A stretch of 63,911 nucleotides of DNA from positions 1 through 63,911 of the forward strand of contig CAMCSA010000006.1 in the NCBI GenBank assembly GCA_945877405.1, read 5' to 3'. Origin of the DNA: an uncultured Erysipelotrichaceae bacterium (GTDB lineage Bacteria > Bacillota_I > Bacilli_A > Erysipelotrichales > Erysipelotrichaceae). Below are positions 26,258-49,710 of the stretch, in pieces. The translations under genes and the position numbers were made by a program. How positions within the stretch are numbered: the first letter of the stretch is position 1; every line of letters starts with the position of its first letter. Below the pieces are notes generated by a model. The model saw only the letters and a list, made by a program, of their open reading frames with translations. It was not told the DNA's origin and searched no databases.

Positions 26258-26263
26258 ACCATT

Positions 26264-26496
26264 ACATTCGATGAACGGAAGAGTAGCCGTATGAAAGTTG
26301 CCAGCGAGTCGGAACAGAGTGGAAGTCCGATCAACGGAAATACAGTGAAGCGCATCCGGGAGAAGTTTTCCTGAAAGAACCAGTAGGGAAAAACGTCAAC
26401 CACGTTACGGAACAGAAGAGGTCATTCATTTTTGAGTGGCAATCAGTGTGGTACCGCGATCAACAGTCGTCTCTGAATATGGAGACGGCTTTTTTG
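26264..26496 (+). promoter_or_regulatory. T-box riboswitch controlling the amino-acid ABC transporter
   Basis: Stem I signatures: AGAGTAG (5' side of the specifier loop), CCAGCGAG with GTGGAAG (distal loop/bulge), and CGGAAATACAGTGAAG (3' side). The T-box proper is AGTGTGGTACCGCG at 26445-26458, whose TGGT bulge would pair with a tRNA ending ACCA. An intrinsic terminator follows. The specifier is read as UAC (Tyr) or, one base earlier, AUA (Ile); UAC is preferred because an A normally follows the triplet. Uncharged tRNA would turn on amino-acid uptake. Confidence 0.9.
26466..26496 (+). terminator. T-box regulated terminator
   Basis: GTCGTCTC pairs with GAGACGGC (8 bp, one wobble), then TTTTTT. 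The antiterminator would use the TGGTACCGCG segment upstream. Confidence 0.85.
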
Positions 26497-47729: not shown

Positions 47730-47758
47730 TGGACAGGATATAAAAACAGGACTATGAT
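47730..47758 (+). promoter_or_regulatory. Promoter of the cys attenuator and cysK-cysE
   Basis: TGGACA (47730-47735), 17-bp spacer, TATGAT (47753-47758). The transcript should begin near 47765. Confidence 0.65.
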
Positions 47759-47790
47759 CATTCCATCAAAACGACAGAGAGGAGAAAGCC

Positions 47791-47871
47791 ATGAAGTATA
47801 CTATGAACTGTTGTTGTATGCACTGTTGTAAATGTACTGACCGGATCCTTATGTCGTTCAGAATTTTTTGA
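47791..47871 (+). CDS. Cysteine-rich leader peptide
   Basis: 26 codons, too short for usual gene calls. It begins MKYTMNCCCMHCCKC and has six Cys codons between 47809 and 47835. GGAG at 47781-47784 is 6 nt from the ATG. The stop TGA (47869-47871) lies in the loop of a hairpin that competes with a terminator. Its position, composition and the following structures indicate a transcription-attenuation leader that senses charged Cys-tRNA. Confidence 0.8.
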   Translation: MKYTMNCCCMHCCKCTDRILMSFRIF

Positions 47872-47918
47872 GCATTTTACGACAGAGGTGTCCGGTACGT
47901 AATGTATCGGCTTTTTTC
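47840..47918 (+). promoter_or_regulatory. Cysteine attenuator: competing antiterminator and terminator
   Basis: Antiterminator: ACCGGA (47840-47845) with TCCGGT (47891-47896), reinforced inside by TGTCGT (47852-47857) with ACGACA (47879-47884). Terminator: CCGGTAC (47892-47898) with GTATCGG (47904-47910), then CTTTTTTC. Both use the same bases at 47892-47896, so they exclude each other. A ribosome stalled at the Cys codons would leave the antiterminator free to form; one that reaches the stop codon would cover ACCGGA/TGTCGT and let the terminator form. A further ACGACA at 47771 and TGTCGT at 47935 add alternative pairings. Confidence 0.8.
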
Positions 47919-47958
47919 TTTCCCTGTCGTTTTCTGAAATAAAGGAGAAATGAATAAT

Positions 47959-48891
47959 ATGACTAAAATTTACACATCCGTCGATCAGCTGATCGGTAAT
48001 ACACCATTATTCAAACTGAATGGGTTTAAGAAGAAATATGATCTTGTTGCGGATATCTATGCCAAGGTTGAATACTTTAACGCTACAGGTTCTGTCAAAG
48101 ACAGAATTGCACGCCAGATGATACTGGATGCCGAAGAATCCGGGGCATTAAACCCAGGTTCTACCATTATTGAGCCAACCAGTGGCAATACAGGCATCGG
48201 ACTATCTGCAGTAGGCACATCCCGTGGCTACAAGGTGATCATTGTCATGCCGGATACAATGTCCGTGGAAAGAAGAAAGCTGATGAAGGCATATGGTGCA
48301 CAGCTTGTTCTGACAGAAGGTGCAAAAGGCATGAAGGGTGCGATTGACAAAGCTGATGAACTGCATGCGGAAATCCCAGATTCCTGGATTGCAGGACAGT
48401 TTGATAACCCATCTAACTGGAAGGCACACTATAATACAACAGGTCCTGAAATTGAAGAAGCACTGGAAGGAAAAGTGGATATTCTTGTAGCAGGTGTTGG
48501 AACTGGTGGTACAATTACAGGTACAGGTAAATACCTGAAGGAAAAGAATCCTGATCTGAAAGTTGTTGCGGTTGAACCGGCATCATCCGCCGTATTATCC
48601 GGAAACAAGAGCGGTCCGCATAAGATTCAGGGAATCGGTGCAGGCTTTGTACCAAAGGTTCTGGATACGGATATTTATGATGAAATCATTCCTGTATCTA
48701 ATGAAGATGCTTTTGAAACAGGAGCTTCCATTGGTAAGACGGAAGGAATTCTTGTTGGAATCTCTTCTGGTGCAGCATTATATGCCGCACTTCAGCTGGC
48801 AAAGAAGGAAGAAAACAGAGGAAAGAATATTGTTGTCATCTTCCCGGATTCGGCAGACAGGTATCTTTCCACAGGTATGTTTGAAGAATAG
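47959..48891 (+). CDS. cysK: Cysteine synthase A (O-acetylserine sulfhydrylase)
   Basis: 310 residues. This PLP enzyme makes cysteine from O-acetylserine and sulfide. The PLP lysine is K47 in NATGSVKDR; EPTSGNTGIGLS, VGTGGTITGTGKYL and GISSGAAL are typical. The ATG at 47959 is 11 nt from AAAGGAG; an in-frame ATG at 47950 is too close. It lies directly behind the Cys attenuator and just ahead of the acetyltransferase that supplies its substrate. Confidence 0.96.
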   Translation: MTKIYTSVDQLIGNTPLFKLNGFKKKYDLVADIYAKVEYFNATGSVKDRIARQMILDAEESGALNPGSTIIEPTSGNTGIGLSAVGTSRGYKVIIVMPDTMSVERRKLMKAYGAQLVLTEGAKGMKGAIDKADELHAEIPDSWIAGQFDNPSNWKAHYNTTGPEIEEALEGKVDILVAGVGTGGTITGTGKYLKEKNPDLKVVAVEPASSAVLSGNKSGPHKIQGIGAGFVPKVLDTDIYDEIIPVSNEDAFETGASIGKTEGILVGISSGAALYAALQLAKKEENRGKNIVVIFPDSADRYLSTGMFEE

Positions 48892-48903
48892 ATCAAGGTG
48901 AAT

Positions 48904-49710
48904 ATGAGGCGTACGATATTGGATGAACTGAATGCAATCACAGATCAGAAACTGAATGAGGAAGTGGGGCTTCCCGGGCGTAAGGAAATCGTATATCTGC
49001 TGAAAGAAGCGCAGGTTGTACTGTTTCCGGAATTCTTCAGTTTTTCAGATCTGACACAGGAAGAGGCTTTTTGTGAACTGCAGGCTTCCCTGGAAAAGGA
49101 AATACGACTGGTCAAAGAAAGACTGTGCGAAGAGTGTGACTGTGCCAGAAAGCTTGTGGATCAGTTCATATCGCAACTGCCAGAGGTCAAGCGATTGCTG
49201 ATGAGTGATATTCAAGCAATCTATGATGGTGACCCTGCAGCAAGATCCAAAGCTGAAATCGTATTATGCTATCCTGGATTTTATGCCATCAGCATCTATC
49301 GTATCGCTCATATTCTGTATACACTTGGCATTCCGTATATTCCACGTGTCATGAGTGAGTATGCGCACGAAAAGACGGGTATCGATATCAATCCTGGCGC
49401 AACCATCAAAGAAGCTTTCTGTATTGACCATGGTACCGGTATTGTAATTGGAGAAACCGCAACAATCGGCAGACATGTCAAGCTGTACCAGGGTGTGACG
49501 ATTGGTGCAAGAAGCTTTGAACTGGATGAAGATGGTAATCCGGTTAAATCAGGTAAACGTCATCCGGATATCGGTGATGATGTCATCATCTATGCCAATG
49601 CGACGATTCTTGGTGGCGATACACACGTTGGTAACAGATCCGTCATCGGTGGTAACGTATGGCTCATTCATTCCGTACCGGAAGATACAAAACTTTACTA
49701 TAAGAATTGA
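48904..49710 (+). CDS. cysE: Serine O-acetyltransferase (EpsC/CysE type)
   Basis: 268 residues. It acetylates serine to O-acetylserine for CysK. An N-terminal helical domain is followed by a left-handed beta-helix of hexapeptide repeats (GIDINPGATIKEAFCIDHGTGIVIGETATIG, YQGVTIGA, HPDIGDDVIIYANATILGGDTHVG), with the catalytic His in DHGTGIVIGE. ATG 48904 follows AAGG; GTG 48898 is an alternative. Co-transcribed with cysK. Confidence 0.93.
   Translation: MRRTILDELNAITDQKLNEEVGLPGRKEIVYLLKEAQVVLFPEFFSFSDLTQEEAFCELQASLEKEIRLVKERLCEECDCARKLVDQFISQLPEVKRLLMSDIQAIYDGDPAARSKAEIVLCYPGFYAISIYRIAHILYTLGIPYIPRVMSEYAHEKTGIDINPGATIKEAFCIDHGTGIVIGETATIGRHVKLYQGVTIGARSFELDEDGNPVKSGKRHPDIGDDVIIYANATILGGDTHVGNRSVIGGNVWLIHSVPEDTKLYYKN

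Follow-up and report, generated by a model that had tools for sequence, protein, structure and literature searches.

What controls cysteine synthesis in this uncultured Erysipelotrichaceae bacterium, and does the short, Cys-rich reading frame upstream of its cysK gene take part in that control? The DNA analyzed here (the window, 63,911 nucleotides in all) comes from a draft genome of 2.1 Mb, where it forms contig C6. An earlier note on this DNA had placed a cysteine attenuator ahead of a cysK-cysE pair, and profile matches to the two downstream genes, which presumably share one operon, are in agreement with that position.

47950..48891, + strand: cysK, cysteine synthase A (TIGR01139, 441 bits; cutoff, 351)
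48898..49710, + strand: cysE-like serine O-acetyltransferase (best match TIGR01172, 159 bits, E 7e-47; below the 211-bit cutoff)

The probable true start of cysK is the ATG at 47959, 11 nt after a GGAG. In many of the relatives that bear a leader, cysE also lies next to cysK, on its 3' side. Upstream of cysK, the window contains the following elements.

47730..47758, + strand: sigma-70-like promoter, TGGACA-17-TATGAT (a consensus match only, about as frequent as expected by chance in this region)
47780..47784, + strand: Shine-Dalgarno (SD) sequence AGGAG of the leader open reading frame (ORF), 6 nt from the ATG at 47791
47791..47871, + strand: leader peptide ORF of 26 amino acids, six of them Cys (MKYTMNCCCMHCCKCTDRILMSFRIF, then stop); Cys-run leaders of relatives occupy the equivalent place
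47809..47817, + strand: Cys codons 1 to 3 (TGT TGT TGT), the putative main sensor; the Cys-Cys run is kept in relatives, with TGT and TGC varying
47824..47835, + strand: Cys codons 4 to 6 (TGT TGT AAA TGT), as read from the sequence
47840..47896, + strand: antiterminator hairpin (-23.8 kcal/mol, z -3.95; 0/200 shuffles as good)
47892..47917, + strand: intrinsic terminator with U-run (-8.7 kcal/mol, z -3.04, with 47890 to 47911 folded; better than all shuffles)

The promoter-like site would place the transcript start at about 47765, with the proviso that such sites are expected by chance here. The leader frame agrees with the earlier description of 26 codons, six Cys codons, and a ribosome site; its translation is predicted from the SD sequence and the short ORF. 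The codons cluster for the very amino acid that the products of cysK and cysE make, and the probability of at least six Cys in 25 residues is ∼4e-6 against a background of 1.8% Cys, taken from the long ORFs of the window. Short ORFs with an SD sequence and a Cys-Cys pair are rare in themselves: even with the cysK leader counted, they occur in only 8/318 window blocks and upstream of 2/72 window ORFs. Their frequency of ∼2.5% in random 400-nt blocks is what speaks for a mere coincidence of Cys codons and hairpins near cysK. A search of the genome for other Cys leaders matched the SD-ATG-CysCys pattern at 111 places, and the six that were checked proved to be coding sequence or chance.

Between the leader and the first gene lies an intrinsic terminator, whose 5' arm (segment B, CCGGTAC, 47892 to 47898), loop (47899 to 47903), and 3' arm (segment C, GTATCGG, 47904 to 47910) are followed by a TTTTTT run at 47912 to 47917. 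A terminator scan retrieved this same hairpin and T-run (47892 to 47910) as one of two terminator-like sites in the region, compared with a mean of 0.3 in shuffles. In the alternative fold, segment A (ACCGGAT, 47840 to 47846) pairs with 47890 to 47896, and inner helices join 47847 to 47857 with 47879 to 47888. As the earlier note had it, the leader stop codon (47869 to 47871) falls inside the antiterminator, in its apical helix and loop, and bases 47892 to 47896 are common to both structures to the nucleotide, which makes the two mutually exclusive.

The window copy also carries complementary words of the ACGACAG/CTGTCGT type (AAAACGACAG and CTGTCGTTTT) before the SD sequence (47768 to 47777), within the ORF (47852 to 47857), before the terminator (47879 to 47885), and after it (47925 to 47934). 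These words would permit further alternative pairings.

From these sequence features and the comparisons below, we propose with a probability of roughly 0.88 that the cysK-cysE leader is a Cys-tRNA-responsive, ribosome-mediated transcription attenuator. When charged tRNA(Cys) is plentiful, the ribosome would run through to the leader stop codon, where it would cover A, the base of the antiterminator, or both; B, left unpaired, would then form the terminator with C, and transcription would end before cysK. When cysteine is short, ribosomes would stall at the Cys codons, leaving A exposed some 20 to 30 nt downstream; A:B would form ahead of the synthesis of C, RNA polymerase would proceed, and cysK-cysE would be switched on. 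Judged by footprint size, stalling at the sixth Cys codon (47833) would leave the nearby segment A covered by the ribosome, so the useful sensors are probably the first four or five.

The named relatives of this bacterium are rumen and gut Erysipelotrichaceae, among them the isolate Erysipelotrichaceae bacterium NK3D112, in which the leader is present (L032), and metagenome-assembled genomes labeled Erysipelotrichaceae or Solobacterium. At the threshold used, CysK was detected in 54/70 genomes of the genus, and upstream sequence was collected for almost every copy. An SD sequence with a Cys-run leader, a hairpin, and a U-run precede cysK in about 32 of these 54 genomes (e.g., MKHTGNFYMCCCKK..., MTAMLTNTCCCCKK..., MKNNVAVLNCCCCF..., MNTFTNNIMCCCCCDT..., and MSVTDLHNACCRTIII). 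The hairpin and subsequent U-run were present between leader and cysK in all 37 leaders analyzed, that of the window included. About 22 cysK-bearing genomes have no leader; there, judged by eye, cysK often lies downstream of other genes. No Cys leader was seen in the order-level outgroup loci examined (the f2 family), and a search of a viral contig set retrieved no related cysK.

The relatives also bear on whether the Cys-rich peptide is itself the product, for instance a small metal- or thiol-binding protein, with the hairpins serving as an ordinary 3' end and spacer. The window copy, with its Cys-rich motif and several Cys residues, would suit such a protein. However, outside the Cys-Cys run, which is present in nearly all leaders and whose codons vary synonymously (TGT, 100; TGC, 42), the peptides vary in both sequence and length (14 to 37 amino acids). 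Segment A usually starts 17 to 31 nt past the first Cys-Cys codon, and in four leaders (L011, L012, L030, and L043) its start lies 2 to 7 nt past the stop codon's first base. Because A is there at or beyond the stop, its conservation in these leaders is at the RNA level rather than the peptide level. A functional peptide would also leave the lineage-specific complementarity of A and B, described next, unexplained, and we regard it as a slim prospect.

Each leader contains three segments. Segment A lies within the ORF or shortly past its end, while B and C form the 5' and 3' arms of the terminator. A is almost identical to C, and each is complementary to B, commonly as CCCGGA/TCCGGG/CCCGGA for A/B/C. 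In divergent leaders, the triplet differs while the complementarity is kept: GGCGGGT/ATCCGCC/GGCGGAT in L011, CTCGG/CCGAG/CTCGG in L007, and AGGAAAC/GTTTCCT/AGGAAGC in L163. Segment A is able to pair with B in all 26 nonredundant leaders, among which 21 distinct B heptamers occur. As CCGG is self-complementary, A:B pairing arises more easily by chance, for which reason swap and shuffle controls were used. The mean A:B energy was -14.2 kcal/mol for a leader's own segments and -11.2 kcal/mol with swapped partners (26 leaders; P < 5e-5, 0/20,000 permutations), and the best A:B heptamer score was 15.6, compared with 11.4 ± 0.5 in controls with the ORF region shuffled.

The B:C helix is kept in relatives, and the antiterminator and terminator arms covary between lineages. 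When 15 leaders, mainly of the CCGG type, were aligned with MAFFT, covariation of B:C exceeded that of nearly all shuffles, while that of A:B was not clearly above them. The comparative support for an antiterminator exclusive with the terminator is thus weak on the CCGG-type alignment, and the A:B covariation evidence draws mainly on the divergent lineages. The earlier note had named relatives without the leader frame or compensatory base changes as grounds for abandoning the attenuator, and the comparison supplied no such grounds. The swap and shuffle tests, together with the presence of the device in about 32 of the 54 genomes, also dispose of chance: the comparative data reject a coincidence, the probability of which is practically negligible.

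When the whole leader was folded at equilibrium, with the ribosome represented by a simple mask, no consistent switch emerged. Since the decisive moment comes before C is transcribed, we instead used a cotranscriptional model, in which transcripts were truncated before C and no pairing was allowed across the ribosome. With the ribosome at the first Cys codon, B was paired upstream with a mean probability of 0.72, compared with 0.52 in shuffles, and 26/26 leaders exceeded the null. With the ribosome at the stop codon, the mean fell to 0.31 and was lower by >0.1 in 22/23 leaders, a state that favors attenuation partly by construction because less RNA is left to pair. The spacing by which a stalled ribosome exposes the antiterminator and one at the stop hides it was recovered from the position of A and in the truncated model, although the switch itself appeared in the truncated model only. 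L009 and L033 were poor fits; in both, a ribosome that had reached the stop codon would encroach on B. A protector (or pause) hairpin (1:2) upstream of A did not stand out (probability of A being paired upstream, 0.51; null, 0.47; P = 0.12). Such a hairpin is a feature of the trp subtype and is not taken here to define all attenuators. With no conserved protector, the prediction is that leader RNA escaping translation would be read through, in contrast to trp.

A covariance model of the leader, run against the 70 genomes of the genus, returned 25 matches at E < 1e-3, 24 of which stand before cysK. This distribution bears on the signal that is sensed. Many Bacillota leaders of attenuator-like architecture respond to antibiotics, and the cysK leader might likewise sense a general inhibition of translation rather than cysteine. 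The feature common to the leaders is, however, a Cys-Cys run, the genes regulated make cysteine, and strong matches to the model are confined to cysK in all instances save one; sensing of the antibiotic type is therefore exceedingly unlikely. The 25th strong match (G004:C8) is a plain terminator with no Cys leader, and other covariance matches away from cysK (L242, L243, L244, L246, and L247) likewise have none.

A further alternative keeps the ribosome as sensor but has it act on translation or through Rho, on the pattern reported for the polycysteine leaders of mycobacteria, with the hairpin acting elsewhere. Precedent exists in the Cys leaders without terminators predicted in Actinobacteria (PMC1262725) and in the mycobacterial polycysteine leaders, for which PMC13236596, citing Canestrari et al. 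2020, describes translation attenuation. Very short Cys ORFs with no terminator seen also adjoin cysK in other Clostridia (L037, L060, and L088; MKICCKMRC, MIFLLTERCCS, and MKQLYPNLLEKRCCTDRMCNNR), where translation-level Cys control is possible. In the 37 leaders analyzed, by contrast, the hairpin and U-run before cysK are without exception, and in the window the cysK SD sequence lies ∼30 nt past the U-run, outside both the A:B and the B:C pairings. We consider control by translation or Rho very unlikely at this locus and retain transcription attenuation.

Several genomes of the genus carry more than one such element. A second, different leader (...NKQMMCCRVLCSRA...) precedes a paralogous cysK without cysE in G011, G067, and G088, where it coexists with the cysK-cysE leader. 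Paralogous cysK genes without cysE at L158, L160, L161, L162, and L163 have their own Cys leader and terminator. At L011, L043, L121, and L144, a second SD-preceded ORF with an SSCIC motif (e.g., MGRNDSSCICGDCCIYLSLRHIQTI) lies between the terminator and cysK, as if Cys leaders stood in tandem.

Which other cysteine regulators does the genome encode? The earlier note had expected CymR or a T-box. A search for Rrf2-family proteins (CymR/IscR type) found no PF02082 match in the assembly, which is 95.6% complete; the control search was positive in 13/14 genomes. With no detectable Rrf2 protein, the genome appears to have no CymR. The T-box expectation held for cysS and failed for cysK. No Rfam family matched the window leader or 20 leaders of relatives; T-box (RF00230) was among the families without a match, and no stem I with specifier loop or antiterminator bulge was found at the cysK leader. 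Elsewhere in the genome there are 19 T-boxes, one of which lies upstream of cysS (L215, G000:C14:28068-28250, minus strand) with the specifier UGC (Cys), as read from the layout GAA...XXXA given in PMC5794164. The same procedure yielded TAC at tyrS and ATG before a methionine-transporter-like gene. Cysteine charging and cysteine synthesis therefore appear to be under two readers of one tRNA. Another T-box in the window (26262 to 26477) has an apparent CGC (Arg) specifier and precedes a gene for an ABC-transporter substrate-binding protein; a second T-box with a CGC specifier is found at L133.

Did such leaders arise once? In a tree of 80 CysK proteins, the leader label required 16 changes, at least nine of which are forced by well-supported branches; the label is clustered and does not form a single clade. 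Among 250 Oscillospiraceae genomes, 211 have cysK matches, and eight loci of this family (L074, L083, L104, L185, L186, L187, L190, and L192) show Cys-rich leaders (e.g., MTRSVLHTNIAKGMVCTMVCCCRAHRCPAFSAA) and strong terminators before cysK. The leaders at L074, L083, and L104 differ in peptide and terminator sequence, which makes an independent origin plausible, though not proven; L104 did no better than shuffled sequence in the stalled-ribosome model. Recurrent control of cysK by Cys-codon attenuators in Bacillota without CymR, gained several times and standing beside a Cys T-box at cysS, is a proposal to which we give even odds. The proposed gains would cover the Erysipelotrichaceae cysK-cysE operons, the paralogous solo cysK genes of the same genus, and several Oscillospiraceae lineages. 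If this is true, one cell reads the charging of Cys-tRNA in two ways, one for synthesis and one for charging.

A cysteine attenuator of cysK would explain how cysteine synthesis is matched to supply in gut Bacillota where no CymR-type regulator is found, and it would extend the leader-peptide attenuators of the phylum to cysteine. It also shows that a codon run paired with a covarying triplet of A, B, and C segments can reveal leader peptides whose shortness and variability keep them out of annotations and for which Rfam has no entry. Our searches of the open-license literature turned up no account of a cysteine attenuator from Bacillota. Provisionally, then, the principle is classical, while the combination of amino acid, operon, and phylum is apparently undescribed.

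In its general plan, the cysK leader resembles the trp, his, leu, and ilv attenuators of Proteobacteria: a translated leader with repeated codons for the end product, a terminator, and an exclusive antiterminator precede a biosynthetic operon. It differs from them in being cysteine based, in occurring in Bacillota, in having no conserved protector (1:2) hairpin, and in the near identity of A and C, both complementary to B. Amino-acid leader-peptide attenuators are also known within Bacillota, where T-boxes are usual, namely, the Leu/Ile leader of the ilv-leu operon in Staphylococcus aureus (PMC5794164) and the His leader of hisZ/hisS* in bacilli (PMC2965389). These serve amino acids and genes other than those of the cysK leader, and in S. 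aureus the partner of the antiterminator is the poly-U tail (PMC5794164), whereas in the cysK leader it is the terminator 5' arm.

Among cysteine leaders, the uORFC-8-2 motif, for which Cys-responsive transcription attenuation is predicted before cysS in Rhodobacterales, shares with the cysK leader tandem Cys codons in an upstream ORF followed by a U-run terminator (PMC8632094). That motif belongs to alphaproteobacterial cysS and has two Cys codons in its first stem; in the Bacillota cysK-cysE leader, A follows the Cys run, the antiterminator stem begins only after the Cys codons, and cysS is served by a T-box instead. The mycobacterial ORFs are likewise rich in Cys codons and placed before cysteine genes. 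As represented in PMC13236596, however, they are leaderless, act at the level of translation, and have no obvious terminators, whereas the cysK leader has both an SD sequence and an intrinsic terminator. T-boxes (RF00230) and the cysK leader are alike as sensors of tRNA charging, the former through binding of tRNA to the leader and the latter, as proposed here, through the reading of codons. Because its cysS gene is preceded by a Cys T-box, this bacterium would offer a natural comparison of codon-reading and tRNA-binding sensors of one tRNA.
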